From the IMG/VR virus record IMGVR_UViG_3300037882_002282, positions 1 through 64,000 of that record: 64,000 bases of DNA. One strand, written 5' to 3'. The stretch is from a virus. The notes beneath the pieces are model-generated. The model saw only the letters and a program-made list of their open reading frames with translations, ran no database searches and was not told the origin of the DNA. Each line of letters opens with the position of its first letter. The stretch's first letter is position 1. A program made the position numbers and the translations under genes. This document shows, one piece after another, positions 10,742-63,850 of the stretch.

Positions 10742-11277
10742 TGAAAAGATTCAATTCCCCTAAGAGTGTACAGACAGTTGAACTGACAACTCCTAAGAAC
10801 TTTAGTGATTTTGTTAGTTTAGTATGGAGTGAAATCTATGAAACTGAAATGGATGCTTATATTATCTTGAGTGGTAACATAAAGACAGCAAAGAACTTAC
10901 ACAAATTTGCCCATAACGTTTTGTGGCCAGGTAAAAACATCGCTTTCTGTTCATTGCTTACGTCGGTGTATTATTATAGTGACAGACATGGTTTTAACCA
11001 ACAAAACAGGGGATTACTTCTAAAAAATTATGAAGCTTTGGTTTTTCCTAGAGATGAAATTTTTGCATTAGTCAAAGAAACGCATTTGCCCCAAGGAATA
11101 TATAAAACTTCTAATATTAGTTCAGTATTAGGATATTGGGCCAAAACCAGAAAGAAAGATATTTATTATTTTTCACCATCGCTCTGTCAGAATGATAACG
11201 AAGACGGCTGTTTGTTTGTTGGCGAAGATTACGATGTTGCTAAGGGGGTGGGCCAATGGCGTTCCGATACTGGATAA
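10741..11277 (+). CDS. hypothetical protein (178 aa) in the tail module
   Basis: I do not recognise this protein. It is a soluble mixed alpha/beta sequence with no membrane segment and no clear motif. Its ATG overlaps the stop of the giant structural gene (TAATG), with AGGA a few bases upstream, so it is probably translated by coupling. Its 3' end overlaps the next gene by 22 bases. The position between two large surface-protein genes suggests a tail-associated or assembly role, which is inference only. Confidence 0.7.
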   Translation: MKRFNSPKSVQTVELTTPKNFSDFVSLVWSEIYETEMDAYIILSGNIKTAKNLHKFAHNVLWPGKNIAFCSLLTSVYYYSDRHGFNQQNRGLLLKNYEALVFPRDEIFALVKETHLPQGIYKTSNISSVLGYWAKTRKKDIYYFSPSLCQNDNEDGCLFVGEDYDVAKGVGQWRSDTG

Positions 11278-25406: not shown

Positions 25407-25889
25407 CTATTTGTCCTTAAGATATAGTTCAGATAAGTAGTATGGTATGTAGACACCTTTTTCTTTGGCTCTACTACCATAGTAAGGTAGAAAGTTCGTT
25501 TTTATTGCTTGTTTAAAAATCTCTAATAGATCACCCTCTTTCGTCCTCTCTTCTATATTAACTGGTTCTGGTAAAAAACTTAGACATGTTTTATCGCGGA
25601 TTAATTCGTGACCGTCATACAAAAAAATATGATCTTCGCTGTACCCGATAGCACGGCACTTAGCCACGATATCACATATGATTATAAGCCGCACCCCATG
25701 CTCTGGCAACCCCAAAAATGTTGGGTTTCCTGCCTCGCCTATCGTAACCCCCTGTCTTGCCCCTTTTAACACGGTGTAAACCGTAAGTTCTTTTTCTGGG
25801 GTTAATAAACAGTAGGTATCCGAGTTAGCTTTGGTAAGAGATACAAAATATTTATTCTTAAGTAGAAAATTCTGAACCGACTGTTTCAT
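25407..25889 (-). CDS. hypothetical protein between polymerase C-half and ssb (160 aa)
   Basis: Soluble alpha/beta protein starting MKQSVQNFLLKNKYFVSLTK, with hydrophobic strand RLIIICDIVAKCRAIGY. I do not recognise a family. It overlaps the polymerase C-half by 32 bases and abuts ssb exactly, so it is co-translated with replication genes and is likely a replication accessory. Confidence 0.6.
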   Translation of the reverse strand: MKQSVQNFLLKNKYFVSLTKANSDTYCLLTPEKELTVYTVLKGARQGVTIGEAGNPTFLGLPEHGVRLIIICDIVAKCRAIGYSEDHIFLYDGHELIRDKTCLSFLPEPVNIEERTKEGDLLEIFKQAIKTNFLPYYGSRAKEKGVYIPYYLSELYLKDK

Positions 25890-27474
25890 TATATAAATTA
25901 TGTTGCTTGCTTCTCATTTTACTTACAGTTTCCACATTAAAGCTTCCAAACGAGTTATCTCTAGTACCAGTTAGATACAATACCGCCCTTTCTTTAAGTA
26001 GGTGTCCGTAAGTTTCTAGTGCGTCTGGAAATACTGTAATGTTCTTAAGAACCCCAGTTTCGTCTTGAACAACTAGAAACATCATTTTTTGCCCAAGAGT
26101 TTTTCCACGTTTGATTGTGTGTTCCCGAATGGACAATACCTCAACACCAAGAACAATATTCCTATACGTCTCCTTACGATTAGCGAACATATAACAGGTA
26201 CAATTAACTTCTATATCTTCGTAATCCTCTACGTAGGTTGTAGTTACAGCTACTCCCAAGTAATGTTGTTCTGATTCTGTTTTACTATTTCCAGTGTCTT
26301 CTAAACTAATTGGGGGGCGTTTTAAGGTTATCAACAAATCTTGTATCTTCGACGTTCTACTTTTATTAGCGGCACCGCCACCCAATTTCTTGGGAATACT
26401 CAATCTGTCTAACAAATCCTCGAAATCGCCCTCATAATTATTCTTACACCATTCTTTTTCTTTTTCTGTAAGTTGTTGATAGATTCCATACTCGTACTTC
26501 ATCCTAGCTCTTGGTACATCCAAGTAATCTAAGGCACCACAACCAATCAAAGCTTCAAAGTTAGTTTTTACTATTTCATCTGAGAGGAAAATTAGGGTTT
26601 CTAACCAGGACCACTCATTTTGTTTCTTATTCAACTGAGATGTGACGGAAGCCACTCCCATAAGAAGTTTTTCTAAATTAGACTCACCGAATGATCTAAC
26701 AGATTCATAACCGAAATAAATTACTTTGTCTCTAGCCTCAAAAGACCTGTTTAAATGCCTAAGGTCTGGTGGGCGAATATCTATACCGCCTAAGCGGGCA
26801 TCAGTAACTAATTCTTCTAGCTCTGCTTGTGGGTCAATTTTCAAATGCGACTTGGATAACCAGCTTAAAAAAAAGAAATCTGTATACAAAACCTTAATAT
26901 AAGCACAATAATAGCTTAATAAAGCATATGCGATTGCGTGACTACGATTAAAACTATATCTTTGACTTGCTTCAATGTTTTGAAATAATACGTCGGCTAC
27001 TTCTTGTGATATAATGTTATTTTTAACTACTCCTTCCATAAAGTTTAATTTAACTTTAGCCATTAGTTCTGGTATTTTTTTACCGCAAGCTTTCCTTAAT
27101 TCATCGGCCTGTTTTAGATTAAAACCAGCAACTAAACGACAAATTTCCATTCCTTGTTCTTGATATAGAATAAGACCAAAAGTATCTTTTAATACAGGTT
27201 CTAGAACTGGATGAGGATAATCTACTTCTTCCTCCCCAGAATTACGATCTACATAATGTTGAGTTACTGTTTTATCGCCGATATAAGCCTCTAAACTTCC
27301 AGGTCTTATTACACTGATTAGATCAGCAATTTGTTCTATACTTTTAGGCTTAATTTTTTTCGAGTAGCTTCGACCCAGTGGACTTTCCAATTGGAACACG
27401 CCCTTACATAAACCATTGGCTAAAAGTTCCCATACTCTTGGTTCGTTAAGCGGAATATTATCTAACGACAACAT
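25858..27474 (-). CDS. dnaE: DNA polymerase III alpha, C-terminal half (split gene)
   Basis: Corresponds to the fingers and C-terminal parts of DnaE. VWELLANGLCKGVFQLES, DLISVIRPGSLEAYIGD, ILYQEQGMEICRLVAGF, ADELRKACGKK and RYSFNRSHAIAYALLSYY are the fingers motifs. A HhH-like region and an OB domain near residues 420 to 520 follow. It begins almost exactly where the N-terminal half (30719-32575) stops. None of the three catalytic aspartates is present, so it must act with that half. No intein remnant is visible at its start, so joining by protein splicing is unlikely. The two halves probably associate non-covalently. Confidence 0.9.
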   Translation of the reverse strand: MLSLDNIPLNEPRVWELLANGLCKGVFQLESPLGRSYSKKIKPKSIEQIADLISVIRPGSLEAYIGDKTVTQHYVDRNSGEEEVDYPHPVLEPVLKDTFGLILYQEQGMEICRLVAGFNLKQADELRKACGKKIPELMAKVKLNFMEGVVKNNIISQEVADVLFQNIEASQRYSFNRSHAIAYALLSYYCAYIKVLYTDFFFLSWLSKSHLKIDPQAELEELVTDARLGGIDIRPPDLRHLNRSFEARDKVIYFGYESVRSFGESNLEKLLMGVASVTSQLNKKQNEWSWLETLIFLSDEIVKTNFEALIGCGALDYLDVPRARMKYEYGIYQQLTEKEKEWCKNNYEGDFEDLLDRLSIPKKLGGGAANKSRTSKIQDLLITLKRPPISLEDTGNSKTESEQHYLGVAVTTTYVEDYEDIEVNCTCYMFANRKETYRNIVLGVEVLSIREHTIKRGKTLGQKMMFLVVQDETGVLKNITVFPDALETYGHLLKERAVLYLTGTRDNSFGSFNVETVSKMRSKQHNLYNETVGSEFST

Positions 27475-30718: not shown

Positions 30719-32575
30719 TTATTGACTGGCATTTATTAACCTTAGTGCCTTTCCTAACTTATCTAAACTAGCTACAGCCAAACAGTCTACTTTACATAAT
30801 CCTGCCGTTTCGGCAGACTTTAAATCCCAACCACAAATTTGTTGTTTGCTTTTAGAGTCATAAATCATTGGGGCGATATCTACTAGAGGACGATCACAAA
30901 TGATAACTCCAGCAGGGTGACGAGAAGAATTGCGTTTTGTCCCCTCTAACTTCATAGCGTGCTTAAAATAGACGCCTAAATCTCCCTCACACTTTGGTTC
31001 AAACGTTTCACGATCAACCTCACAGAATTGGGCTAGTTTGTCAGTACGGTTCTGCAATGCCCAACGAATAATAGAATGATCTTCAATTTCTTGAATTTCA
31101 TCAATTACTTCGGCTTCACCAGGAATGAACTTACTTACTTCATTAGATAGATCGAAGGAAACATCATAAGCTCTAAATACATCCTTAAGAGCCCCCCGAC
31201 CCATCATTCTGCCGTATGCGGCAATTTGACAAACATTATTTCTACCGTATTTTTCTCTAATGTATTCTACTACGCCCTCTCTTGCACTAACCTCAAAGTC
31301 TACGTCGATATCTGGTAAGGCAACTCTATCGGGTGTGTTACGACCATCATTATAGAAACGTTCAAAAATTAGATTATACTTAATGGGGTCAACACGAGTA
31401 ATCTTGGTTAGATAGGATACGAGACACCCGCCAGCACTACCTCTACCTGGACCCGTTAAGATACCCTGGTTTGTGGCCCAGTTTACATAATCTTGCACTA
31501 CTAGAAAATAAGGACTGAGCCCAGCTTTTTCAATAACGGAGAACTCCATCTCCATTCTATTTCTATATTCTGGGGTATCTAAATTCTTTTCTGCTATGCT
31601 ATCATTACATAACTTACGCAGGTATTCATTTGAGTTTAGCCCATCAGGACAATCAAACTTGGGCATAAACGGCTTATTGGTAATATCATAGTTATCGCAC
31701 ATAGACGCGATAACAAAAGTATTCTCTATTTCCTCTTGTGTATTACACTTGCTCATTCGTTCGTGCGATGGAATATAAAATTCACCGTGTCCGCTGAAAA
31801 ATGCCCTGAACGGAATATCTAATCCTTGTGCCAAACCACGCTTTAATTCTGGCACACTCTTTTTAATAGCAGACGACAGAATGATTTGGTGAAGCTCAAT
31901 ATCATCTGGTTTGGTATAGTGGCTGTCAGCAGTTGCTACTACTTTCTTTCCGTTCTTTTTTGCCCAGTTTCGTAAATTATCTCCTAATACTTGGCAGATG
32001 GGAGTATTTTTAGCATCAATAGTTTGGATTTCTACAAAGAAGTTATCCTTACCAAAGATATCTTCGTGTAAACCAATCGACTGTTCTACTTCCTTTTCCC
32101 AATTTTGTCTAACTTTATTATTTTCGTCCAGTAGAACATCAGAGACGGTACTACCTAAATGCCCCGAAAAAGATATTAAATTCTTATTTGAGTTTAATTC
32201 ACCAAGTCGTTTTAGGCTAATTCTGGGTTTGTAATAATAGTTTTGTGGTTTGTTGGTTTCATCTATAATCTTTAATAGAGTTTTCCATCCGTTAAAATTT
32301 TTGGCTAAAACTACAAGATGAGATAGATTCCTATTTTCTGGAGTTTGGTCAGATGGGTCATTTTTACATATATACAATTCTACCCCTTGAATGGGGATAA
32401 TTCCTTCTTTCTTACAAGCAAGCTGGAATTCTACTGAACCGTTTACTCCACCGTGGTCCGTCAAGGCAATATGAGTTTGTCCTAATTCTTTTGCTCGTTT
32501 AGCTATATCAGTTGGCTTACTTAATCCATCGAGCAAGCTGTAGTGGGAGTGCTGGTGACAGTTAATATACATCAT
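30719..32575 (-). CDS. dnaE: DNA polymerase III alpha, N-terminal half (split gene, 618 aa)
   Basis: Contains the PHP domain (HQHSHYSLLDG at residues 7 to 17, TDHGGVNG near 40), the palm with GPGRGSAGG (375 to 383), and the catalytic aspartates in LPDIDVDF (D422, D424) and KVDCLAV (D597). It ends just after the third catalytic Asp, where a full DnaE would continue into the fingers domain found at 25858-27474. There is no splicing motif at its end. The start overlaps the HNH gene as ATGA. Host-type DnaE is about 1160 residues; the two parts here sum to 1156. The natural reading is a two-subunit polymerase. Confidence 0.9.
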   Translation of the reverse strand: MMYINCHQHSHYSLLDGLSKPTDIAKRAKELGQTHIALTDHGGVNGSVEFQLACKKEGIIPIQGVELYICKNDPSDQTPENRNLSHLVVLAKNFNGWKTLLKIIDETNKPQNYYYKPRISLKRLGELNSNKNLISFSGHLGSTVSDVLLDENNKVRQNWEKEVEQSIGLHEDIFGKDNFFVEIQTIDAKNTPICQVLGDNLRNWAKKNGKKVVATADSHYTKPDDIELHQIILSSAIKKSVPELKRGLAQGLDIPFRAFFSGHGEFYIPSHERMSKCNTQEEIENTFVIASMCDNYDITNKPFMPKFDCPDGLNSNEYLRKLCNDSIAEKNLDTPEYRNRMEMEFSVIEKAGLSPYFLVVQDYVNWATNQGILTGPGRGSAGGCLVSYLTKITRVDPIKYNLIFERFYNDGRNTPDRVALPDIDVDFEVSAREGVVEYIREKYGRNNVCQIAAYGRMMGRGALKDVFRAYDVSFDLSNEVSKFIPGEAEVIDEIQEIEDHSIIRWALQNRTDKLAQFCEVDRETFEPKCEGDLGVYFKHAMKLEGTKRNSSRHPAGVIICDRPLVDIAPMIYDSKSKQQICGWDLKSAETAGLCKVDCLAVASLDKLGKALRLINASQ

Positions 32576-48906: not shown

Positions 48907-51900
48907 TTAGAATAAATCGCATTTTCCGCCAGCACACGCGATCTCATTAAGTGGTTTAGTATCATCTTTGCTCTCGATAAGTAACTCATAATCAACTTCT
49001 TTATATTCTCTACTAAGATCAACAAACTTTTTCCAGTTATAAACATCTTTGAGGCAATAAGTCATTTGTTTTAGATCGCCCTCAAAATAACGTTCGGCAA
49101 ACCTAAAAGCTTTGTTTAAAAAATGTAAGTGAGTACTGTTTGACTCTTTGTTGCCTAAAATGATATCACACGCTGCCCACAAATCGCCCCCAAACGTATT
49201 TAATGCGGCCTCAATAATTCCACTACAAAAGATGCCACCATCACCATATAGGTTAATAATCTCTTTGGGTGTGAAGACGGCTGTAAATGGAGCTTGTGGA
49301 TAATCCTTATCTCCACTCTGAGGCAATAGAGATACACCAGTTAGAAATTTCTTATTATGATAAATGAAATCTGCTACAGCATCCCACTCATCTTCTTTGA
49401 CTACAATAGTGTTGCTTACATTATGATTCAACCAGGGTTGAACACACAAGTCTCTGTTGGTGCCAGTTAACACCCAGTTTTGTTGTGTTGACACAACAGC
49501 TTCTAATAACTTAACTGCTGATACCTGATTTTTAAGCTTAGCTCCATCTGGCACTTCTACCGTAAAGGAAATAACCCCATCCGTTCCATTAGCACTCCAA
49601 ACCGAATCCTCACACGCAAACGGGTTTATAGACTCGAAGAACTTATATGGAGCTTCGTTCTTGTTAGATTGTACATTACGAATATATCGTTTAGCGTGGT
49701 GTGGATGGATGCCACTACTAGTACCTAAAATACAACTACTAGTTCCCTCTGGTTTAATACAAGTAGTTCGTGCTGCTTGTCTAATACCAATCTTGGCTGC
49801 TATTTCCTTATTTACAGCCTTGACTATTTTAGCCCCAGCTTTCTGAATCCTCTCATCTAGGGTAATTTCTGGCTTTTCCATAACGCCAGTCATAGATACT
49901 CCAATCAAAGCTTCTCGTCTTACAATTCTTTCTGTTACTTCTCCAAGGTATGGAAATGAGTCAAATCCAGCTTGTAGTGTTCCAATAATAGCAGCAGCTT
50001 TACAAGCCTCATAAAAGTCCTCTTCGTTAGTTACTTTGGAGCAATTAATCGTGCTAAGATTACACATTTCCCAGCCAGAATTGCCTTGCTCGTCATAACC
50101 GTAAAGTCCGATTTCGACACAATTTGATACATCACATCCTTGAGTCCAGTATGTATGACTTTTATTATCTACCGTAATATCGAAAACCTCTTCTCTAGAA
50201 ACTAGCTCAACTTTAATAATGTCATAATTAGTTTTAGGATTTCTGTTTTCTGGTAGAGAAGATATAATCTTACTAAGTTTCTCGTTTTTGTATGATTGTA
50301 AGAATCCAACTATCCGTTGGAACTTGCTAGCATCAGTAGAGATATTTAAATCATAACTTTCTTTGCAAACATATTCGCCATTTTCAAACTTAACTTTAGT
50401 AGACTTATTTGTTGTAAAGTATGATCTGATACCAACTGAAGACAACATCATTTGTACGTCTTCAATTAACCCCAACGATGATGACTTTAAGGTTACTCTG
50501 TTTCCGCAAATACTACCATTCGCACTGTATAAACCACGTAGAAAACCAACAACTTTACCACAATCGCCCGTTAAAAATCTGTTAGGAACTCTACGCTCGT
50601 ATGTATATGGTAATTCAGAATTGGTAATAGTAGTTTGAACTTCAAAAGCGGTATCGGATAAACCTGGGCGATATGTTGAAATTAGAGAACTAATTTTGTG
50701 ATTAAAATAATCTTGGTCATTTTGTCCGATATGTAGATAAACTAAGTTATTCGACGCTTTGTGAACAGCACCATCTCCAATTACCAATCCGTCAATAATA
50801 TCTTGTTCACTAACTACACCCATTTCTGGGAATAAACCAGGAATAATATCGATAGATTCTGCATTACCAACTTCTACTTTAACTCCATTAGAAACAATAC
50901 GATGTTGCTCTGTTCCATAAAAAATACCAGCGGTTGTTGTATATTTATATACGTTTTTAGTACCAGTTGACCATTTGTTTACTACTTGGGTAAACCCTTC
51001 CTTACTCCAAATGTAGTCACCAATTTGAACATCTTTTAATTCTCTAATACCTTTTTTAGTAAGTAATTTAGCCCATCCTGGTTGACAAGGGTTTGTTAAA
51101 GTTTCTTTATCTTCGCACCAAAAGAAACCAGGTTCGCCACAATCTCTGGTAGACTGGATAATCTCTTGGAATTGTTTCTTTGAAACTTCACTTCTTACTA
51201 AAACTACAGAATTATTTGATCTACCCCTTTGTGGATTAGTATAGAACCAATTACCAGTTTTTGCTTTCATCATCTCTTCATCTTCAAGAGAGAATAAGCA
51301 AATAGTACTAGACCTGCGAACACCACCAGAAAGCACTGCATCACTAGCGTGCATGATAATATCATAACAATCAATTGGTCTTAAAATGCCACCATAATCG
51401 TTAGCAACATCGTCCAATATGGTTTGAATTTTTTCTAAAGCTCGTTTAAGAGGTTCTGGGCCTGGAGCGGTTCCACTACAATCGGAAAGGGGGGAACCTT
51501 CTGGGCGAATTTCTGAGTAGTCGAAATCTACAAAAGAATAAGCATACTCAGGAAAGATTGCGTTTTGGGGCGAAAAATAAGATGAGATTAAAACTCCTAG
51601 AGCATCACCCCAACCTTCAATACTATCTGGTACAACAAACACTTTCTCGTCCCGTATAATTTTACTACGGTGCATTTGTGGAAGTTTGGCAACATGGTGT
51701 TTCTGTACGGAAAACCCAGTTCCACAACCGCACAACAAAAGAAAAAACGCTTCCTGAAAAAATCTTAATCTATCACAGTATGAAGACGTACAATTATAAA
51801 TTTTCTCATTGCGTTTTAGAATAGGTCGTCCACCAAATTGCAAGGCTCTTTGCGAGCCGAGAACCCGCTTTTTTGCCATCTGATCGTATGCCCAATTAAT

Positions 51901-52047
51901 ATCCTCTTTAAGCTCAGGATATTTCTGGAGCATCATATTCCTAATTCTATCTACACTTTCTTTCCATGTTTCTCTACGTTTCTTTTCTTCGTTATATCGG
52001 GCATACCTTGAAGTGAAGGTGTATTTTTGTAGCTCTTTAAGTGACAT
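48907..52047 (-). CDS. adenosylcobalamin-dependent ribonucleotide reductase (class II, RTPR-like) with intein, 1046 aa
   Basis: Monomeric B12-dependent reductase resembling Lactobacillus RTPR: VLGSQRALQFGG, the Cys-rich N-terminal region, GGVRRSSTICLFS, and the C-terminal CAGGKCDLF redox cysteines. An intein of 322 residues (50122-51087) interrupts the active site between TNP and CVEIGLYG, so splicing restores TNPCVEIGLYG with the catalytic thiyl cysteine as the first residue after the intein. The spliced enzyme would be 724 residues, near the usual size. It converts ribonucleoside triphosphates to deoxy forms without a separate radical subunit. The window shows no cobalamin-synthesis genes, so the host must supply B12. 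Confidence 0.92.
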   Translation of the reverse strand: MSLKELQKYTFTSRYARYNEEKKRRETWKESVDRIRNMMLQKYPELKEDINWAYDQMAKKRVLGSQRALQFGGRPILKRNEKIYNCTSSYCDRLRFFQEAFFLLLCGCGTGFSVQKHHVAKLPQMHRSKIIRDEKVFVVPDSIEGWGDALGVLISSYFSPQNAIFPEYAYSFVDFDYSEIRPEGSPLSDCSGTAPGPEPLKRALEKIQTILDDVANDYGGILRPIDCYDIIMHASDAVLSGGVRRSSTICLFSLEDEEMMKAKTGNWFYTNPQRGRSNNSVVLVRSEVSKKQFQEIIQSTRDCGEPGFFWCEDKETLTNPCQPGWAKLLTKKGIRELKDVQIGDYIWSKEGFTQVVNKWSTGTKNVYKYTTTAGIFYGTEQHRIVSNGVKVEVGNAESIDIIPGLFPEMGVVSEQDIIDGLVIGDGAVHKASNNLVYLHIGQNDQDYFNHKISSLISTYRPGLSDTAFEVQTTITNSELPYTYERRVPNRFLTGDCGKVVGFLRGLYSANGSICGNRVTLKSSSLGLIEDVQMMLSSVGIRSYFTTNKSTKVKFENGEYVCKESYDLNISTDASKFQRIVGFLQSYKNEKLSKIISSLPENRNPKTNYDIIKVELVSREEVFDITVDNKSHTYWTQGCDVSNCVEIGLYGYDEQGNSGWEMCNLSTINCSKVTNEEDFYEACKAAAIIGTLQAGFDSFPYLGEVTERIVRREALIGVSMTGVMEKPEITLDERIQKAGAKIVKAVNKEIAAKIGIRQAARTTCIKPEGTSSCILGTSSGIHPHHAKRYIRNVQSNKNEAPYKFFESINPFACEDSVWSANGTDGVISFTVEVPDGAKLKNQVSAVKLLEAVVSTQQNWVLTGTNRDLCVQPWLNHNVSNTIVVKEDEWDAVADFIYHNKKFLTGVSLLPQSGDKDYPQAPFTAVFTPKEIINLYGDGGIFCSGIIEAALNTFGGDLWAACDIILGNKESNSTHLHFLNKAFRFAERYFEGDLKQMTYCLKDVYNWKKFVDLSREYKEVDYELLIESKDDTKPLNEIACAGGKCDLF
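50122..51087 (-). mobile_element. intein with LAGLIDADG endonuclease in class II reductase
   Basis: Residues 321 to 642 of the reductase. It starts with Cys (CQPGWAKLLTKKGIRELKDV) and contains the block B region around TEQHRIVSNG. It has two LAGLIDADG helices (GLVIGDGAVHK, GFLRGLYSANGSI) and ends at VSN just before the +1 Cys. The penultimate residue is Ser where His is usual. The insertion point is the catalytic cysteine motif. Confidence 0.92.
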
Positions 52048-54171: not shown

Positions 54172-54420
54172 TCATTTTTTTCTCGTCTTTAAAGGTTTAG
54201 GTTGATTACACTTTACTGGAATAACTTCCCATCCGTAATACTTAAACGGTTCTGGGAGCCTCTTACAATCTAGGTACAAATAAATCTTCCACTCATCTAC
54301 AGCAACGGCACACCACTTGTACCAATGTTTTCTATGGGTCGAAAGTTCGCCCAGCCAAATTTCACTTAAACTTTCTGCGGCACGCTGAATATCTAATCGC
54401 TCTGGTTCGTATTCGTTCAT
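54172..54420 (-). CDS. hypothetical protein (82 aa)
   Basis: MNEYEPERLDIQRAAESLSE then an aromatic-rich part (WYKWCAVAVDEWKIYLYLD). Overlaps the TIM-barrel gene by 4 bases. Unknown. Confidence 0.55.
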   Translation of the reverse strand: MNEYEPERLDIQRAAESLSEIWLGELSTHRKHWYKWCAVAVDEWKIYLYLDCKRLPEPFKYYGWEVIPVKCNQPKPLKTRKK

Positions 54421-55451
54421 ACAGTAAACTTCGTATTAGTTCCAGTGATATTTACATTACCATCCTGTACAACCACCTTAGCACTACCGACGACAGTTTG
54501 CTTAAAGGCTGATTGTAGGAACAGGTCTTTAGAATCTATGATTTTGTATTTTGCGTTATATTCTTCTGTGTTAACTTCTACTCTAATCCAATCTCCATTA
54601 GTTAATGTAAAGGTTGCCCCAACAATCGGGGTGTTCTCAATTTCAAATGGGACTCTGGTACCAGTATCAAAGTATACTTCATACTTTTTTAATTCTGCGT
54701 GGAACGACTTATATCCTTCAACTAAATCTGTTCTCTCTAATATGTATGAGTAGTACTTATCATTCTTGCCTACCTGTTCGGGAATACCCTCAAACAAGCT
54801 ATAGTAGCCTAAGCCATTAGCACCAGCACAAATAGCAGCCATTGCTGAAGCAGTATTATATTGTAGAGGTACATAATCGTCCAGCATCCATTCCCGACGA
54901 TTAGCTTTGACTCCAAATTCCAACGGAGTCATTTTAATCAGTGCAGGACCGTGAAGTAGAATACCTTTACATTGTTTCCTAGCTTCTAGCATAGCGGTCC
55001 ATGACCACTTTTTAAGACCTTCTCTATAATGATAGTTTTGAACATGATACATTTCTGCTAGATTAGCAAATACAGCGTGGTCAGCCCCTTTACCAACTGT
55101 AATATATGTTTTGATGCCTGGTTTAATGTGTGGTTTGAGAGTAGCTAATCTTTCTAAAGTCTTTTGTAATCCATTGAGGTTAGCGTCATCCATACAATCC
55201 CACGCAATAACATTAGTGTTTGCGTTTAAAATAGTATTTATCTTAGCATAGTCCCAAGTGTTTGGGGTGATAATAACATTTAATCCAGCGGCTTTACAAG
55301 CTGGAACAAATGCATCATCAATTGCTGGATTGGTAAAATCTGCAAGCATAACCACACCATTTAAACCAAAGTTTTTCATGGCGTTGATAGAATCGAAGCG
55401 GAGCTTTTGTGCTACATCATCGAATCCTTGAAAATATGAAAATATTAGCAT
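54417..55451 (-). CDS. TIM-barrel glycoside-hydrolase-like protein (344 aa)
   Basis: A (beta/alpha) barrel pattern is visible over residues 1 to 240: MLIFSYFQGFDDVAQK, FGLNGVVMLADFT, GLNVIITPNTWDY, NVIAWDCMDDAN, IKTYITVGK, and ASAMAAICAGANGLGYYSLF. The last string resembles GH42/DUF4434-type barrels. A beta-sandwich C-terminal domain follows (residues 260 to 344). The acidic pair needed for hydrolysis is not proven. It may cut or bind host polysaccharide. The ATG at 55451 is chosen because earlier starts overlap the preceding gene. Confidence 0.5.
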   Translation of the reverse strand: MLIFSYFQGFDDVAQKLRFDSINAMKNFGLNGVVMLADFTNPAIDDAFVPACKAAGLNVIITPNTWDYAKINTILNANTNVIAWDCMDDANLNGLQKTLERLATLKPHIKPGIKTYITVGKGADHAVFANLAEMYHVQNYHYREGLKKWSWTAMLEARKQCKGILLHGPALIKMTPLEFGVKANRREWMLDDYVPLQYNTASAMAAICAGANGLGYYSLFEGIPEQVGKNDKYYSYILERTDLVEGYKSFHAELKKYEVYFDTGTRVPFEIENTPIVGATFTLTNGDWIRVEVNTEEYNAKYKIIDSKDLFLQSAFKQTVVGSAKVVVQDGNVNITGTNTKFTV

Positions 55452-55714
55452 TAAGTTCTCCCGCAACATTTTTTAACAGGTGGAGTCTGAGGTTGATCGC
55501 TCAATATCTCAAACATATTAGAAGGCACGGCGTAAGCGGCTGCTGTATCAGAAAAGTATAGATCGGATACTTCGCCCCGATTTACAAGATCAGTAACAGC
55601 AACAACTTCGCCCAGATGATAAGTTTTATCTTCTGTTACATCAACTAAATTACCGTCCACAACTTGTGTGTCATGAACGGTAATAAGTGTTTCTTCTCTA
55701 AATTGGATTCTCAT
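55451..55714 (-). CDS. hypothetical protein (87 aa)
   Basis: Small beta protein (MRIQFREETLITVHDTQVVD, then EVVAVTDLVNRG) with a Cys-rich tail (PVKKCCGRT). It abuts both neighbours. Possibly a virion or assembly protein. Confidence 0.5.
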   Translation of the reverse strand: MRIQFREETLITVHDTQVVDGNLVDVTEDKTYHLGEVVAVTDLVNRGEVSDLYFSDTAAAYAVPSNMFEILSDQPQTPPVKKCCGRT

Positions 55715-56064
55715 TATTCTACGCTAGCCCACACGTCCTCGATATCACCATCGTCAGCATCTAAGGCAGCAGAAATTAGAGCTTCCTCTACTCTATCTCC
55801 CCTATGCCTAAATTCTTGACGGCCCATTGCATCCTTCAAATGACGCCTTAAAGCTAAACGCTGCCCAAACTTAGGGCTAGCGGCAATATTCTTAACCGAA
55901 GCTGAAGATGTGCCTCTACACTCTTGAATCTTTTTAATGAGTTCTAAGATCAATTCAGCAAAAGCAAAGAATGTTGTGGGATCAAGTGCTTCTTGTTTTT
56001 CACTATCGCTAGAAGCGTAATGATCTACGAATTTGCCAGTTAAGTTTTCTAGTGCCTTGTCCAT
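55714..56064 (-). CDS. hypothetical protein (116 aa)
   Basis: Helical protein (PTTFFAFAELILELIKKIQE) followed by a basic region (GQRLALRRHLKDAMGRQEFR) and acidic tail. Abuts both neighbours. No family recognised. Confidence 0.55.
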   Translation of the reverse strand: MDKALENLTGKFVDHYASSDSEKQEALDPTTFFAFAELILELIKKIQECRGTSSASVKNIAASPKFGQRLALRRHLKDAMGRQEFRHRGDRVEEALISAALDADDGDIEDVWASVE

Positions 56065-56432
56065 TAGTAACCCCCTTGTAGTTGTTGAGCGTTGTTATCA
56101 TAGTTATAGTCAGCCATATTCAAGTTTTGAACACGTTCACGAAGATTTCTGTTCTTAACTTTTTGGCGTTGAACAACTTGTTTTGAACGAATTTTTTGTT
56201 TAACGTTTTGTTGCTGCACTTGAGCATACTGAACATTTTGCTGTAAATTAAAATTCTGGTTATAACTATTTTGGTGTTGAGCCAAAACAGGAATAGGTAA
56301 ATATGCGGTCAGTTGTTGTCCAGCACTATAAAGCTGTTGGACTTGCTTAACCTGCTTAATATTGTTACGACAACCAGTTCCGTAAGCAAAACTAGGTACT
56401 AGTAAAAGAGTTAGAACGATTAGAATTTTCAT
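56064..56432 (-). CDS. exported Gln/Asn-rich protein (122 aa)
   Basis: Signal peptide MKILIVLTLLLVPSFAYGTG, followed by a Gln/Asn/Val-rich body (NSYNQNFNLQQNVQYAQVQQ) and a basic stretch. One Cys lies after the signal region. Probably exported or periplasmic. Next to the heme genes and likely co-expressed with them. Confidence 0.6.
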   Translation of the reverse strand: MKILIVLTLLLVPSFAYGTGCRNNIKQVKQVQQLYSAGQQLTAYLPIPVLAQHQNSYNQNFNLQQNVQYAQVQQQNVKQKIRSKQVVQRQKVKNRNLRERVQNLNMADYNYDNNAQQLQGGY

Positions 56433-57107
56433 TTATGAGCCCCATTTAAGTTTGTTATATTCCTTGATGTAATCCACGTCTCCCTTAGTCGGTGGAGGTT
56501 GAGTTTCTGGGCGTTTTGGCATATCACCAGATTCCATTTGGTCATGAATTTTCCTCATAGCCAACTCATCTTCCCATACGACGACATTTTCACCATCGAA
56601 AATTTGGAATCCGCCACTTTTTCTGTCTTGGTTATGACATTTCTTACAATTATATTTTGTAGAAAGTAATTCTTTAATATGGGTCCGATGGGCTAAAAGT
56701 TTTGCTTCTAGCTGTTCATCTGGACCACCTAAATCCCCGCCACCATCTGATTTACCTCCGTCCCCGCCACCAGTTTTGCCTTCTAGCTTGTCGAGCAAAT
56801 CAGATAAAGCCCCTTCTAGATTGGCAATTCGTTCATCTTGTTCGTCGATTCTGGCTTCCAGAGCCTTAATTTTGGCCTGATCGCCTACAGAGTAATAGTA
56901 TCCCAAACCCAAAGAATCTACAGGCAATCCAACATAATATGGATTATAGGGGTTATACTCTACAAATCGTTTTTCTATTTTGGCGAAATTTTGTTGGGGT
57001 GCAGCTATAAATTGTTGTTTTTGGACCACACGTTTAGGGGGTGTTGCAAAAATAGCCCCACTAAACATCATAACAACAATGAGTCCGCCTACTAATTTGC
57101 TTTTCAT
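56433..57107 (-). CDS. exported c-type cytochrome-like protein (224 aa)
   Basis: Signal peptide MKSKLVGGLIVVMMFSGAIF, then a coiled coil (residues 80 to 110), a Gly-rich linker (112 to 128), and a C-terminal heme domain with CKKCH (154 to 158). A possible axial Met lies in ESGDMPKRP, and a late GDVDYIKEYNKL helix follows. The tail order matches the small c-type cytochrome domain typical of planctomycete proteins, which supports a heme role, but no covalent heme is proven. It may carry electrons or act as a redox sensor after export. Driven by the promoter at 57137. Confidence 0.6.
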   Translation of the reverse strand: MKSKLVGGLIVVMMFSGAIFATPPKRVVQKQQFIAAPQQNFAKIEKRFVEYNPYNPYYVGLPVDSLGLGYYYSVGDQAKIKALEARIDEQDERIANLEGALSDLLDKLEGKTGGGDGGKSDGGGDLGGPDEQLEAKLLAHRTHIKELLSTKYNCKKCHNQDRKSGGFQIFDGENVVVWEDELAMRKIHDQMESGDMPKRPETQPPPTKGDVDYIKEYNKLKWGS

Positions 57108-57136
57108 TAAATGTCCTCACATAAGTCCCCACCATA

Positions 57137-57146
57137 ATTATACACC
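57137..57146 (-). promoter_or_regulatory. phage-type promoter for 57107 gene
   Basis: GGTGTATAAT, exact consensus with TT before it, 30 bases before the ATG. It lies immediately past the 3' end of the other heme gene. Confidence 0.75.
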
Positions 57147-57150
57147 AATT

Positions 57151-58884
57151 TTAGTAAGCGGCTGCTATCACGTCGCTCTTGAGGACATACCCCTTTTTAC
57201 CATCTGCAACAACTTCAATCCAATAATTTCTAACATTACTGTCTTTAGGTTCGCCCGAGAACTGTAATCTTTGCCCCTTCTTTAGTTTACCTATTGTATT
57301 ATTTCCGCTCTTTAGATCAGTAGATTCAGCAACTACTTCTAGTAATACAACCCCACCGTTTCTAATGTGGTTTGGAATATCGTCAAATTCGATTATTGTT
57401 GGTTTATAATCTTCTGTATCTGGATTAGTTGTTACTTTTTCTACCAGTTCAGTAATTGGTTTATTGGCGGCTAATTCAGGATCAGGTTCAGGCTTCGGGG
57501 CGGTATCTACGCCAACTTCGGGCGAGGGAAGGTTATGAATATATAATTGAGCTTGTTGGTATTCTCCGTTTTTTACCTGTTCCCATACTTCGCGGGGGAT
57601 AGTACCACCATTAGCCATTTTTGCTAATCTAGCACTAGGAGCCCTTTTCAATTTTTCTTTAAGAATATCTACTGGAACACCACATTCAATAGATGCTTGA
57701 TCTGGAGTAATGTTTCTATTATAGAACGAAATAATTTTTTGTAGGCTCTCTAAGTTTTCCTTAGGAGTTCGCCCATTAACTTCTTTCATTACTCTTTTGT
57801 AAGCTAATTCGTCCTCTTCTACATAAGAATTAATTTCACTAAGATAGAATCTTTGACGATATAAACTATCCTTATCTAATCCAGACAAATTAAGTTCTAC
57901 ATTAGTAGCCAGAACTTGTTTGATTTGATCGTTAATTTTATTAATTCCGTTTTCATGGCAACGAACGCAGGACCAAGCTGTACGTACCCTAAAATCATTA
58001 GGGTCTTGTACATCTCTAACTAGACCAGGATCACCAAATTCTACAACCTCATTATTACCATTAACCAGCAAATAAACCTGTAGCCCCGCAAAGTTTGTAC
58101 AGATAATTTCGCCCGCACTTCTTTTACTTTCTGTAGCTTTTAAGTCTTCTACATAATCGAAGTTTGGATCATCAAAAGTTTCCCAATAATAACCAATCTC
58201 TGTTCTTGCACGCGAGAGTAATCTATGGTGTCTAGATACTTCTGAATCGTTTGTGTCTACTACGCCACCACGCTCTAGTTGGAATTTACGGATTTTCGCA
58301 ATGTCCACCCCCCAGAAATTACGGAATTCGTCGAGGTTCTTAAGTTTCTTGCCATAGAGCAAGTTATAGTACATTAACTCTTTGACGCCCAGATCAAGTT
58401 GACTCTGGGCATCTAGACCGTATTTGATAAACCAATCCGCCCTGACGAGAGAGTTACCAGACTGGTACCTAATTTTTTCGTATACTTCTTCAGGAATAAA
58501 TGGCAAACGAATATATGGTTCAGCATCATTCGTAGACCGTTCCCAAGCGTCTTGGGTCCAGTTATAGTTACGAATATCTACCCTGTAGAGAGTGTCTGTA
58601 ACTTTGTCTGGTTGTTTAATAATCAAACCAGAGCTAAGCGAATTGACAACAAAGGATAGGTCTTTACCGATATTTTTATTTAGATCGGGCGGTAAAGTAT
58701 AAGAAGTAAAATATTTTAAGAAGGGTCTTTGTCCTGGTGGGAAGCGTTGTAAATCTGTTAATACAGCTTCCAACTCCGCATCTAGCGTAGGAACAATTTC
58801 AACTTCCTCTACAACCGTTTCTGTTTCCTGAGCATTACCCAATTGGGGCAATGCTATAACCAGGAATATCATACAACTTACCAT
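57151..58884 (-). CDS. exported c-type heme protein with SH3 domain (577 aa)
   Basis: Start at 58884 gives signal peptide MVSCMIFLVIALPQLGNAQ, though the overlap with the protease gene then spans 50 bases. A long middle region (RADWFIKYGLD, VSRHHRLLSRARTEIGYYWE, GLQVYLLVNGNNE) leads to the heme motif CVRCHENG (residues 306 to 310 in this numbering). The C-terminal SH3-like domain is about 65 residues. By memory, this order is close to large secreted cytochrome proteins of Planctomycetes. A database comparison is needed. It sits between the protease gene and the second heme gene. Confidence 0.6.
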   Translation of the reverse strand: MVSCMIFLVIALPQLGNAQETETVVEEVEIVPTLDAELEAVLTDLQRFPPGQRPFLKYFTSYTLPPDLNKNIGKDLSFVVNSLSSGLIIKQPDKVTDTLYRVDIRNYNWTQDAWERSTNDAEPYIRLPFIPEEVYEKIRYQSGNSLVRADWFIKYGLDAQSQLDLGVKELMYYNLLYGKKLKNLDEFRNFWGVDIAKIRKFQLERGGVVDTNDSEVSRHHRLLSRARTEIGYYWETFDDPNFDYVEDLKATESKRSAGEIICTNFAGLQVYLLVNGNNEVVEFGDPGLVRDVQDPNDFRVRTAWSCVRCHENGINKINDQIKQVLATNVELNLSGLDKDSLYRQRFYLSEINSYVEEDELAYKRVMKEVNGRTPKENLESLQKIISFYNRNITPDQASIECGVPVDILKEKLKRAPSARLAKMANGGTIPREVWEQVKNGEYQQAQLYIHNLPSPEVGVDTAPKPEPDPELAANKPITELVEKVTTNPDTEDYKPTIIEFDDIPNHIRNGGVVLLEVVAESTDLKSGNNTIGKLKKGQRLQFSGEPKDSNVRNYWIEVVADGKKGYVLKSDVIAAAY

Positions 58885-59719
58885 CAACAAAGATGATAGT
58901 TGTTTTAGTTGTACCAGTCGGAGGATTTGGAGTCGGAGTTGGATCGACTGGTGGAACTGGATTAACTGCTTTACCATAAAGAGCGATAATTCTGTTGATA
59001 TCTCCAGCTTGGGGCTTAGCGACACCTGGAGCATAATAAGGTGCCATTAGGTCGCCAGATTTTCTAGAATGGTCTAATCCTAAGTTGTGTCCAATTTCGT
59101 GAGCGAGTACATTTACTCTCTGTACACCCCTTAAATTAGAAAGTGTAACCCACGTTTCATCATCATCACTTACATTACCTAATTGACTATCAGAACCGTT
59201 GGGCAGATAAGCATAAGCTAATGTTCCAGAAGGACCATCAAACCCGCCCGCTCTACCCCGACCGATACTAAATACAATATCAGCCGATGAACTATTTGTT
59301 CTAGTAAACTTTAAATCAGCTACTTCAGCCCAATAAGAAAAAGCAAGGGCGATTTGTTGTGAGTCAAGTTCGTCGTTTCTCGCCCCATTTAATCTAGATA
59401 CATTTTGTTTAATGTAGTAGGTTAAATTTTTCTTCCGCCACTTACCTTCTTCTACTCTATTGGCTAGGATATCAGGATGACCACATCTAGGTGTAGTCAA
59501 CATCGCCCTAACAGTTAATCTGTCCAATCCTTCTTCAGAATTGATATGGAAAAATTCTCTAAATTGTTCAACAGCTTTAAAGAAATCCGAAACTGTGAAC
59601 TTATCAGTCTTAATTAGATAGCCATAGTATTTTAGATATTCTATAGCTTTAAAAATATCCGCGATAGTAAGGTCACTATTTTTTAGCTCAGCTAAAATTC
59701 TTGGAATAATTGATGCCAT
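58835..59719 (-). CDS. pro-matrix metalloprotease with cysteine switch (294 aa)
   Basis: Residues 17 to 75 form a helical propeptide resembling a peptidoglycan-binding-like domain. PRCGHPD (77 to 83) is the canonical cysteine-switch motif of matrix metalloproteases. The catalytic zinc site HEIGHNLGLDH (207 to 217) and the Met-turn LMAP follow at the expected distance. A Pro-rich linker and short tail end the protein. No signal peptide is seen, so it may be virion-borne or exported by another route. It would cut proteins outside cells, after removal of the propeptide. AGGGGGG precedes the ATG, with the promoter 45 bases upstream. Confidence 0.9.
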   Translation of the reverse strand: MASIIPRILAELKNSDLTIADIFKAIEYLKYYGYLIKTDKFTVSDFFKAVEQFREFFHINSEEGLDRLTVRAMLTTPRCGHPDILANRVEEGKWRKKNLTYYIKQNVSRLNGARNDELDSQQIALAFSYWAEVADLKFTRTNSSSADIVFSIGRGRAGGFDGPSGTLAYAYLPNGSDSQLGNVSDDDETWVTLSNLRGVQRVNVLAHEIGHNLGLDHSRKSGDLMAPYYAPGVAKPQAGDINRIIALYGKAVNPVPPVDPTPTPNPPTGTTKTTIIFVDGKLYDIPGYSIAPIG

Positions 59720-59763
59720 TAGTGCCCCCCTGTCGCTTTTTAAATCATAAATTCTCCTATAGT

Positions 59764-59773
59764 ATTATACACC
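59764..59773 (-). promoter_or_regulatory. phage-type promoter for metalloprotease unit
   Basis: GGTGTATAAT, exact consensus, 45 bases before the pro-MMP ATG. Confidence 0.75.
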
Positions 59774-60056: not shown

Positions 60057-60254
60057 TTAGTCTTTCTTACCTAACTCTAAAGCTGTAAGTAAAATATTAC
60101 CAATGCTACCGACAGCAAGAAAACATCCAGCCAGAATAATTAAACCAGCTTTTTCTGTTTTAAAAGCTTGGTCAGCAGTTCCCCAAGCTGATGCCATAAA
60201 AATGTATAATACTGAGCATACTATTTGGAATTGTCTTAGAGCGTGATATTTCAT
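60057..60254 (-). CDS. small membrane protein (65 aa)
   Basis: Two hydrophobic segments (residues 9 to 24 and 36 to 56) around a polar loop. Its own phage-type promoter lies 26 bases before the ATG. It may be a holin or membrane accessory. Confidence 0.55.
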   Translation of the reverse strand: MKYHALRQFQIVCSVLYIFMASAWGTADQAFKTEKAGLIILAGCFLAVGSIGNILLTALELGKKD

Positions 60255-60757: not shown

Positions 60758-61399
60758 CTAGCTAGAAATGATCGGTGTGCAAAAATAATTTAGTAGGGGG
60801 GTACGGGCTAAGTCATTAGGGTCTGTACCCTTATCTGACCGATTGCGGACAGGATCATAAAACTGTTCTCTCACACATTTAGATACAGAATCACTACAGA
60901 AGTATTTATTATATATGAACTTAGGTTTATCTTCAAAATAAGAAGTATCGTCCCTGTAGTACCATCTTAAGAACGCTAGATGTATTGTTGATAGGCGGAT
61001 AATACCTTTCCAGTCATATTCCGCCCCAGCTAATTCCCTCATACACTCTGCTACTTTAACTCCATCATATTTGTAGGTGATTTTTTCCTCCATAAATACA
61101 CCATCTTTTTCTACTAATGATGGTACAGTAATACTATCTAGAGGGCGATAAATATCAATTTGTCCATTATATACTTTAAGAGCCCTATCAAAACTTACAA
61201 TCCGCCCCCCAACACCTTCTCTTAATTCAATTAGTTCTAGATAATCACCATGCCTACCAATACAACCAACGTGAGAATGAGCACCAGCCCCAGCCTTTTT
61301 TAAAAGCCAAGAAAAGAAAGTGGTTCCCCTAAAAAGGGCAATATCACCATTTCTTAGAAGTGGGCGAATTTCTTTGTAGGGAACTTCGTTGAGTTGCAT
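60758..61399 (-). CDS. permuted NlpC/P60 (YiiX-like) cysteine amidase (213 aa)
   Basis: The N-terminal NGDIALFRG...FSWLLKKAGAGAHSHVGC has the His of circularly permuted papain-like amidases, and YNKYFCSDSVSKC near residue 170 carries the Cys. Such enzymes cleave peptide or lipid amides, and phage versions often act on cell envelopes. It is a candidate lysis or entry enzyme. It lies between the virion protein terminator and the tRNA array. Confidence 0.7.
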   Translation of the reverse strand: MQLNEVPYKEIRPLLRNGDIALFRGTTFFSWLLKKAGAGAHSHVGCIGRHGDYLELIELREGVGGRIVSFDRALKVYNGQIDIYRPLDSITVPSLVEKDGVFMEEKITYKYDGVKVAECMRELAGAEYDWKGIIRLSTIHLAFLRWYYRDDTSYFEDKPKFIYNKYFCSDSVSKCVREQFYDPVRNRSDKGTDPNDLARTPLLNYFCTPIISS

Positions 61400-62077: not shown

Positions 62078-62731
62078 TTACTTTTTAGCTGCTACCCGCA
62101 AAATTTTTGGAATAAAATCTGGCTGTCTAAGTCTCAGCCCATCGATCCCGCTCTTTTCAAGGAATTCAAGCTCTGTATTACTAACAACGTTTGTATCAAT
62201 AATAGCTTTCATAGTACCCCTTTGAGCAATACTTTTAGCTACAATAATACTATCTTCTAGGTTGTCATTGATATTTCCAGTTTCGGTAATTATCGTGTGG
62301 ATACCTTGAAGTTTCAGGGTTTGTAATATAATATCGAGTTGTTTTCGATCAATAAGCTTGTATTCAAGGATTGCTCGGGGCTCAATGCCTCTACTGTAAC
62401 AAAATTTAACAAATTGCTCAATTTCTGAGTTGAGCCTGTTCCATTGTTTGTTTACAACGAACGAATTGTTTATTACTAGGTCAGCAATACTTATATTACG
62501 TTTGCAAGCCTCGGCAAGCTGTTGGAGCTTGACTTGTGTGATATTAAGTCCGAATGGATAATCGATGGGGCAAGCTAAAGCAATATTGTGCCCAATAAGT
62601 TCTATAACTGTGTCTAAATACGGATAACAAACACTTAGAACGTCGAAATCATATTCTGTTGCGGCGAACGCAGCTTTCTGAATATCAGATTTTTTCGCTG
62701 CCCTATAATGACAGTTCAGTTCTAGTTGCAT
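62078..62731 (-). CDS. DeoC-like TIM-barrel protein, catalytic lysines absent (217 aa)
   Basis: The barrel order matches deoxyribose-phosphate aldolase: ACPIDYPFG, ADLVINNSFVVNKQWNRL, EPRAILEYKLIDRKQL, HTIITETGNIND, and a final GIDGLRLRQ. At the position of the catalytic VKTSTG motif the sequence reads IITETG, so the Schiff-base Lys is missing; the second Lys region is also altered. It is probably a non-catalytic or repurposed aldolase-like protein. Start overlaps the sigma gene by 29 bases. Confidence 0.55.
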   Translation of the reverse strand: MQLELNCHYRAAKKSDIQKAAFAATEYDFDVLSVCYPYLDTVIELIGHNIALACPIDYPFGLNITQVKLQQLAEACKRNISIADLVINNSFVVNKQWNRLNSEIEQFVKFCYSRGIEPRAILEYKLIDRKQLDIILQTLKLQGIHTIITETGNINDNLEDSIIVAKSIAQRGTMKAIIDTNVVSNTELEFLEKSGIDGLRLRQPDFIPKILRVAAKK

Positions 62732-63287
62732 TATTTTCCAGTACGTTTCTACATAAGGTTACTATCCTGCTAATGTTTTTAAGACTACAATTATGTTGTT
62801 CAGCCAATTCCTTACTTTTGTATCCGTTATGATATGAAAAGAAAATATCTATATCTCTGTCCTTAATTCCATGTTCTCGTAATCCTTGGACCAAGCTTTC
62901 CTTACAACAATTAAAGGATAAATCTGTATTTTCATTTTTTGGGTGATTAAAATCTGCGTTTTGTAAGTCATTAAGTGGATCGCTTAATTGACTAAAACAA
63001 ATAGTTCTATGACCGTTTATTTTTTTGCTAAAAGCTGATAAGTTTTGATTTATTAACCATTCTATAGTAAGTGATAAATAAGTTTGGAAATTAGACTTAT
63101 CTGGCGAATGATTGCTGATTGCTAACCACAACCCTTCGTTTTTAAACGATTCAAATATATCCCGATCTATACTATAATATTTTAGTTTTAGAAGTTCAAT
63201 AACCCTTATATTTTTGGGGTCATCTAGATATTGTCTGAATTCTTCATTTGAGATTTTACTATATTTTCTTGGAGTGCGTTTTCCCAT
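62703..63287 (-). CDS. sigma-70-like RNA polymerase sigma factor (194 aa)
   Basis: Region 2 pattern GLWLAISNHSPDKSNFQTYLSLTIEWLINQ resembles the core -10-binding helix order of sigma-70 proteins. A region 4-type helix-turn-helix lies at the end (DIDIFFSYHNGYKSKELAEQ then CSLKNISRIV). The two parts sit about 80 residues apart, as in small ECF-like sigma factors. It is a strong candidate to recognise the GGTGTATAAT element found at ten to eleven sites here. ATG 63287 follows GGGA at about 8 bases; overlaps the ClpP-like gene by 64 bases. Confidence 0.65.
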   Translation of the reverse strand: MGKRTPRKYSKISNEEFRQYLDDPKNIRVIELLKLKYYSIDRDIFESFKNEGLWLAISNHSPDKSNFQTYLSLTIEWLINQNLSAFSKKINGHRTICFSQLSDPLNDLQNADFNHPKNENTDLSFNCCKESLVQGLREHGIKDRDIDIFFSYHNGYKSKELAEQHNCSLKNISRIVTLCRNVLENNATRTELSL

Positions 63288-63850
63288 TTGTAGTCCCATA
63301 TGCCATCTATTAGTCCATAGGACTTAGCACTACGGGCATTCAACCACAGCCCAGATTTCAAATCATTCATAAAAGACTCTAATTTTTTACCAGTTCCCTT
63401 TTGGCACGCCTTTGCTACTTGACGATAAATTTCGTCGTTCTTTTTACCAGTAAACTCAGCATATATTTTCTGCATATGTACGTAATCGGTGGGCATATCC
63501 ACGCTATACATATGAAGCATTAAGGTACTATTCTTAGTTGCAAAACGGTGTCCAGGTTCACCAAGGGCTAAAATATTAGCTGCGGCCGAATAAGCCTTTC
63601 CTTGTGCTACAGTCCAAATTGTTATGCCTCTTGCCCGCGTTCCTTCCATTTCATCAATTATTGCATCTTGTGCCTCCGTATCTCCCCCGTCGCTATGAAT
63701 ATAAAGGTATATATCTTCTTTAGAGATATCTGCTAAATATCTCATTGACTGTATTACAGTCTTGGCACTCTCTTCCTTGATTTCGCCCCACAACAAAATT
63801 CGCCTAGATTCTAGAAAAATCTGATCTAGGTCAAATTCATCTTTATTCAT
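63224..63850 (-). CDS. ClpP-like serine protease (208 aa)
   Basis: The ClpP/crotonase-fold protease order is visible: IYLYIHSDGGDTEAQDAI (oxyanion loop), GKAYSAAANILALG with Ser88 in the GxxxS elbow, MLHMYS with His113, and YGLIDGI with a late acidic residue. In phages such enzymes act as head maturation or capsid-processing proteases. No ATPase partner is seen in this window. Confidence 0.85.
   Translation of the reverse strand: MNKDEFDLDQIFLESRRILLWGEIKEESAKTVIQSMRYLADISKEDIYLYIHSDGGDTEAQDAIIDEMEGTRARGITIWTVAQGKAYSAAANILALGEPGHRFATKNSTLMLHMYSVDMPTDYVHMQKIYAEFTGKKNDEIYRQVAKACQKGTGKKLESFMNDLKSGLWLNARSAKSYGLIDGIWDYKWENALQENIVKSQMKNSDNI

Follow-up and report, generated by a model that had tools for sequence, protein, structure and literature searches.

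Why would a tailed phage encode a matrix metalloprotease (MMP) that seems to be made in latent form? The question is raised by a minus-strand gene at positions 58835-59719 of the window, a 64,000-nt stretch of DNA that covers most of the linear, 69,833-bp virus record IMGVR_UViG_3300037882_002282. The tailed-phage character of the record is backed by replication genes of DnaB and DnaE type, for which a range of cultured phages gave matches, and a ClpP-type protein (63224-63850) matches phage head-maturation proteases. The DnaE polymerase is split over separate ORFs (25858-27474 and 30719-32575) with homing-endonuclease-like ORFs between them, and the plus strand carries a 3541-aa protein with tail-fibre-like repeats and no PHROG match (116-10741).

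Identity and architecture of the pro-matrixin

The initial annotation had placed the ORF at exactly these bounds, omitting its strand, and had read its product as a pro-MMP. Analysis of the ORF with Pfam and phmmer bears out that reading. The 294-aa protein has a prodomain with a helical PG-binding-like fold (residues 19-75; 59495-59665), the cysteine switch PRCGHPD (residues 77-83; 59471-59491), and a Matrixin catalytic domain (residues 93-249; 58973-59443) in which both the catalytic zinc motif HEIGHNLGLDH (residues 207-217; 59069-59101) and the Met-turn LMAPYY (residues 224-229; 59033-59050) are intact, all on the minus strand. Cys79, within the switch, is the only cysteine of the protein, and PRCGHPD and HEIGHNLGLDH each occur once in the window when all six frames are scanned. 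A Pro-rich linker and the C-terminal motif TTIIFVDGKLYDIPGY complete the protein (58838-58972, minus strand; low model confidence); the motif has no family match and is similar to KVIMFEIDGKITKI and GHVRAWVDGTIFSM in relatives on viral contigs L059 and L030, respectively.

Membership in peptidase family M10A, as the initial annotation had expected, is indicated by the zinc motif (HExxHxxGxxH), the Met-turn and Pfam PF00413 (Matrixin), which aligns from end to end (profile positions 1-159 of 159) with residues 93-249 at E 4.9e-31; the score is 108 bits and the cut-off 24. When the protein was queried against the PDB with phmmer, human proMMP-1 was matched at 2.5e-31, and the match to proMMP-9 spans residues 22-249; because it begins at residue 22, the prodomain matches too. 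The PG_binding_1 family exceeds the Pfam cut-off in two relatives (L007 and L059), whereas the Pfam matches of the window protein do not include it. An AlphaFold model built from a 20-sequence alignment (pLDDT 75.6, pTM 0.74) aligns to proMMP-1, -3, -10 and -9 over 236-253 columns, and its best 16 fold matches in the PDB are all proenzymes of MMPs. Thus, the protein combines an MMP-fold prodomain with a switch motif at the junction of prodomain and catalytic domain, the features of a latent pro-MMP, and fold alignment suggests that Cys79 would contact the catalytic zinc. A hydropathy scan found neither a signal peptide nor a transmembrane (TM) segment, in agreement with the earlier claim that the protein lacks a signal peptide.

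Conservation of the cysteine switch and loss of the structural zinc site

Of 21 viral matrixins, 18 have a cysteine 12-22 residues N-terminal to the catalytic domain, compared with 2.33 expected under random cysteine placement, a contrast between related sequences that should not be read as a probability. The switch cysteine is aligned and invariant in 20 sequences, persists even where the prodomain is gone, and in several viral matrixins is the only cysteine after the signal region. Its distance from the catalytic domain is exactly 15 residues in the window protein and in the membrane-anchored matrixins of L032 and L034, which have no other cysteine. Two further cysteines in the switch column, one in L007_8282 and one in the lipobox of L062, are alignment artefacts and were excluded from the count. 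The excess over expectation suggests that the switch cysteine is conserved under selection. Export signals are distributed differently: none of the seven prodomain-bearing matrixins (those of the window, L059, L007, L030 and L027 and two from Paenibacillus) has a signal peptide, but Tat-type (RRxF) or TM signals are present in most of the relatives without a prodomain.

According to PMC12587646, a structural zinc is common to all MMPs. In the region where MMP-1 has the ligands HxD, LAH and HFD, the window protein reads GRGRAG, LAY and NVSDDD. LAH is likewise replaced by LAW, LAY, LAR, LAK or LAD in every Tat-type or prodomain-bearing phage relative except L027; the site is complete in L027, in Paenibacillus L003 and in Tenacibaculum L062. 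Two features of canonical animal and bacterial MMPs, the structural zinc site and a secretion signal peptide, are therefore missing from the window protein, and on its predicted zinc ligands it is not a canonical MMP. Taken together, the conserved switch and the lost ligands point to a divergent matrixin of a phage branch that would work in the manner of a pro-MMP.

Phage relatives and phylogeny

The initial annotation supposed that such proteins are rare in phages, a view that the searches do not support. Alignment-based scanning found related metzincins on at least 45 IMG/VR viral contigs, which are metagenome-derived and may be misclassified, and a second viral scan added L059. BFVD already lists a 'Matrixin family metalloprotease' of Maribacter phage Colly_1, entries from Lactobacillus phage 3-521 and uncultured Caudovirales, and insect-virus MMPs. 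Two single-protein viral scans yielded nothing useful, and tblastn of the window pro-matrixin against INPHARED had no matches; detecting these relatives took alignment queries. Two candidates were set aside: L002, which encodes a different metzincin, and L027, which is probably bacterial given its ChW repeats and retained structural zinc.

When 34 catalytic domains are placed in a maximum-likelihood tree, the window, L059 and L007 matrixins form a clade (support 95/89) nested among phage sequences, and bacterial matrixins, including the Paenibacillus plasmid proteins, fall outside it. Gene order is shared between L007 and the window, running through the ClpP-like protein (43%), a short hypothetical protein, a papain-like YiiX protein (35%) and the pro-matrixin (42%) and continuing to dCMP deaminase and an intein-bearing ribonucleotide reductase. 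The papain-like member of this series is a permuted YiiX/NlpC-type peptidase encoded in the window at 60758-61399 (minus strand). In L059, the pro-matrixin gene adjoins terminase and portal genes. The supported clade, the synteny with L007 and this position beside structural genes argue that the matrixin belongs to phages, and sequence and model together establish the gene as encoding a predicted latent M10A matrixin of a phage-owned branch, with its catalytic zinc site intact.

In L040, L041 and L049, very long proteins resembling tape-measure proteins have a matrixin-type HExxHxxGxxH domain close to their C-terminus, and we regard them as tape-measure fusions. L007 has two nearby matrixin genes (8282-9628 and 9980-10750) that are mutual sisters in the tree; one has a signal peptide but lacks a switch, and the other has prodomain and switch but lacks a signal. 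L042, L044 and L045 each have a pair of adjacent metzincin genes that differ from one another. The intein-like insert in ribonucleotide reductase lies within 48907-52047 of the window and 14238-17681 of L007.

A cassette of matrixin and exported heme proteins

The new observation here is that the pro-matrixin heads a cassette with two exported heme proteins, each with a single CXXCH, usually joined by a small secreted protein. In the window, all members are on the minus strand. The first heme protein, hemeA (577 aa; 57151-58884; start re-assigned from the mechanical 59034), overlaps the 3' end of the pro-matrixin gene by 50 nt and has a signal-like N-terminus, a weak C-terminal SH3 domain and the heme-binding motif CVRCH (57955-57969), invariant in the family alignment; its structure model was too poor for use (pLDDT 48). 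It is followed by hemeB (224 aa; 56433-57107), with a signal peptide, a single CXXCH (CKKCH) and, downstream, the conserved MP found in class I cytochrome c, and, as the final member, by a small Gln-rich, low-complexity secreted protein (56064-56432). The invariant CXXCH in both heme families and their signal-like N-termini are those of c-type cytochromes; Cytochrome_CBB3 exceeds its cut-off for the hemeB of L059 only. Farther downstream (54417-55469, minus strand), a 350-aa TIM-barrel-looking protein, possibly a glycosidase, has no Pfam, PDB or phage match.

The pro-matrixin start codon is preceded, at a distance of 44 nt, by the sequence GTGTATAATA (59763-59772, minus strand), which accords with the initial annotation of this gene as the first of a promoter-led unit continuing into heme proteins. 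The window has six exact copies, all on the minus strand (38935, 40722, 53432, 59763, 60279 and 62059), where 0.29 would be expected, and five of them sit 25-44 nt before a start codon; the sequence is probably a phage promoter, one without a clear -35 element. A second promoter-like site with one mismatch, GTGTATAATT, precedes hemeB (57136-57145, minus strand). In L007, GGTGTATAAT stands ahead of the homologous short gene (5768). The window also has a sigma-factor-like gene at 62703-63299.

With a matrixin, the cassette is found in the window and three other phage groups. L059 has the order hemeA, hemeB, pro-matrixin, terminase and portal; L030 has a two-TM protein, a matrixin with PRICGLPD, hemeA, hemeB and the secreted protein; and L032 and L034/36/37 have a TM matrixin, hemeA, hemeB and the secreted protein, followed in L032 by terminase, so that the L032 cassette sits between a tail gene and terminase. 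A tblastn search of INPHARED with hemeA brought up LR756511.1, an uncultured huge phage of 595 kb, which the hemeA profile detects independently (1.2e-51). There, a papain-like protein (weak C1 match, E 0.003) lies upstream of hemeA, hemeB and the secreted protein, and a second hemeA copy comes after a secreted papain-like gene. L065 has the same order of papain-like gene, hemeA, hemeB and secreted protein, and no matrixin was found over the whole record of either phage. The huge-phage cassettes of L063 and L065 also share a secreted protein of 251-255 aa upstream and a repeat protein of 149-221 aa between the papain-like gene and hemeA. In L056, the heme pair and secreted protein occur without a matrixin, which makes the peptidase a usual but not obligatory partner. 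The cassette groups thus number about six to seven, with L034, L036 and L037 near-identical, and hemeA identity between groups is 19-30%. The retention of a matrixin or other protease beside two exported heme proteins suggests an unrecognised phage module for attack on the host envelope.

We found no hemeA of cellular origin, either in scans of genome contigs or in 296 Bacteroidota genomes searched with the same profile that detects phage hemeA. The matrixin scan of genome contigs returned a single match, a distant Tenacibaculum lipoprotein without a switch. Sub-threshold PSCyt1 matches are the sole pointer to Planctomycetota and make them at most a weak host candidate; the hemeB of the window has a weak match of this kind.

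Possible functions of the matrixin

We tentatively favor, at somewhat less than even chances, a late, latent envelope protease that heads an envelope-directed cassette and helps lysis. The matrixin would be synthesized late in infection, as we assume, and Cys79 on the zinc would hold it inactive in the cytoplasm, sparing phage and host proteins from digestion. Membrane permeabilization through holin-type release would then let it reach the envelope in the manner of those endolysins that likewise join a PG-binding fold to an enzyme and have no signal peptide. In the envelope, displacement or cleavage of the prodomain would activate the enzyme, which could cut envelope proteins and, along with the cytochromes, aid lysis and virion release; prodomain-less phage relatives would instead use Tat or TM export, retaining the switch cysteine alone. 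A role in lysis is supported by the precedent of a Listeria metzincin that sensitizes cells to phage lysis (PMC8235301), by the absence of signal peptides from prodomain-bearing matrixins when most prodomain-less ones have Tat or TM signals, and by the recurrence of the cassette. Against it count the lack of any recognised holin or endolysin beside the pro-matrixin, the dispensability of the protease in L056 and the unexplained role of the cytochromes. A 65-aa membrane protein upstream (60057-60254, minus strand) is holin-like by size and hydropathy alone and has no family match, and other small one- or two-TM proteins near matrixin genes likewise lack a holin family match.

The nearness of the cassette to tail or terminase genes in L032 and L059 also counts against lysis, as it fits a virion protein too. 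An entry protease, packaged latent and activated at the cell surface to cut envelope or surface-layer proteins during infection, is a serious if unlikely alternative, in keeping with the missing signal peptide of the window matrixin, with the tail, terminase and portal neighbors, and with the matrixin domains inside tape-measure proteins; however, the window matrixin has no attached structural-protein domain, and the Tat or TM signals of phage relatives fit export from an infected cell better than virion assembly. Another alternative is a cassette that alters the living infected cell, for example by excluding superinfection or by manipulating respiration or redox state. The export signals on hemeA, hemeB and the small secreted protein, the need of c-type heme attachment for a living host's maturation system, and the putative promoters heading both subunits of the cassette are consistent with this remodelling of the host surface, which we judge unlikely, as the matrixins of the window, L059, L007 and L030 carry no export signal. 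Cytoplasmic synthesis without a signal peptide would allow an intracellular protease for the maturation of phage proteins, timed by its prodomain, yet the window already encodes a ClpP-type head-protease homologue, relatives are Tat-exported and cassette partners are secreted, making this very unlikely. Least credible of all is a passenger gene recently captured by chance from a host and without phage function. Paenibacillus plasmids do have matrixins with prodomain and switch, but the phage-only clade, the L007 synteny, the recurrent cassette and a structural-zinc loss common to phages and not to bacterial matrixins speak against it.

A bolder reading, to which we give slightly less credence than to surface remodelling, is that tailed and huge phages share an undescribed module in which a latent peptidase, either matrixin or papain-like and exchangeable between phages, is coupled to two exported c-type cytochromes and a low-complexity secreted protein. 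In it, the cytochromes might exert redox control over the protease through the switch cysteine, or collapse the respiratory envelope, in either case constituting a new system for host-envelope attack or lysis.

Implications for the evolution and ecology of MMPs

The evolution of MMPs has so far been read as gene traffic among animals, plants and bacteria. Viruses go unmentioned in a study of MMP transfer from 2025 (PMC12587646), which takes MMP counts in marine metagenomes as a sign of animal-matrix degradation. Widespread phage matrixins with a conserved cysteine switch would be both a vehicle of transfer and a confounder for such readings. Should the envelope be its target, the cassette would represent a system for lysis or entry that works by cutting proteins, and hosts whose walls are rich in protein or that have surface layers would be those against which it is of most use. 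We know of no role for phage cytochromes linked to a peptidase.

Comparison with known systems

A close parallel in architecture is with human pro-MMPs (proMMP-1, -3, -9 and -10), which share the prodomain, the PRCGxPD switch, HExxHxxGxxH, the Met-turn and the fold; the window protein differs in lacking a signal peptide, a hemopexin domain and the structural-zinc ligands. Two Paenibacillus plasmid matrixins (WP_202677761.1 and WP_338709029.1) share a PG-binding-type prodomain and the absence of a signal peptide, with switches reading LPRCGLPD and DRCGQPD. Thus, possession of the switch is not confined to eukaryotes and phages. Unlike the window protein, WP_202677761.1 keeps the structural-zinc ligands, and both proteins have long C-terminal repeats and belong to the bacterial group of the tree. 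In karilysin of Tannerella forsythia, latency depends on a short propeptide with Asp instead of Cys. The catalytic domain of this bacterial matrixin (PDB 2xs3/2xs4) matches at E 5e-20.

Among viruses, the MMPs of insect DNA viruses (granulo-, asco-, entomopox-, irido- and nudiviruses) have the matrixin fold, a likeness by fold only, and their carriers infect animals, unlike the window phage. The likeness is also by fold only, with weaker matches, for the 199-aa matrixin of Maribacter phage Colly_1 (E 1.1e-3) and the 253-aa Zn protease of Lactobacillus phage 3-521 (E 3.3e-7). A functional parallel is the Listeria Mtz/Tim locus, in which Mtz, a phage-derived metzincin acting on the envelope, combines with Tim to increase both phage lysis and the release of virions (PMC8235301). 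Mtz is secreted and has a TIMP-like lipoprotein as its partner, whereas the partners of the window matrixin are cytochromes.
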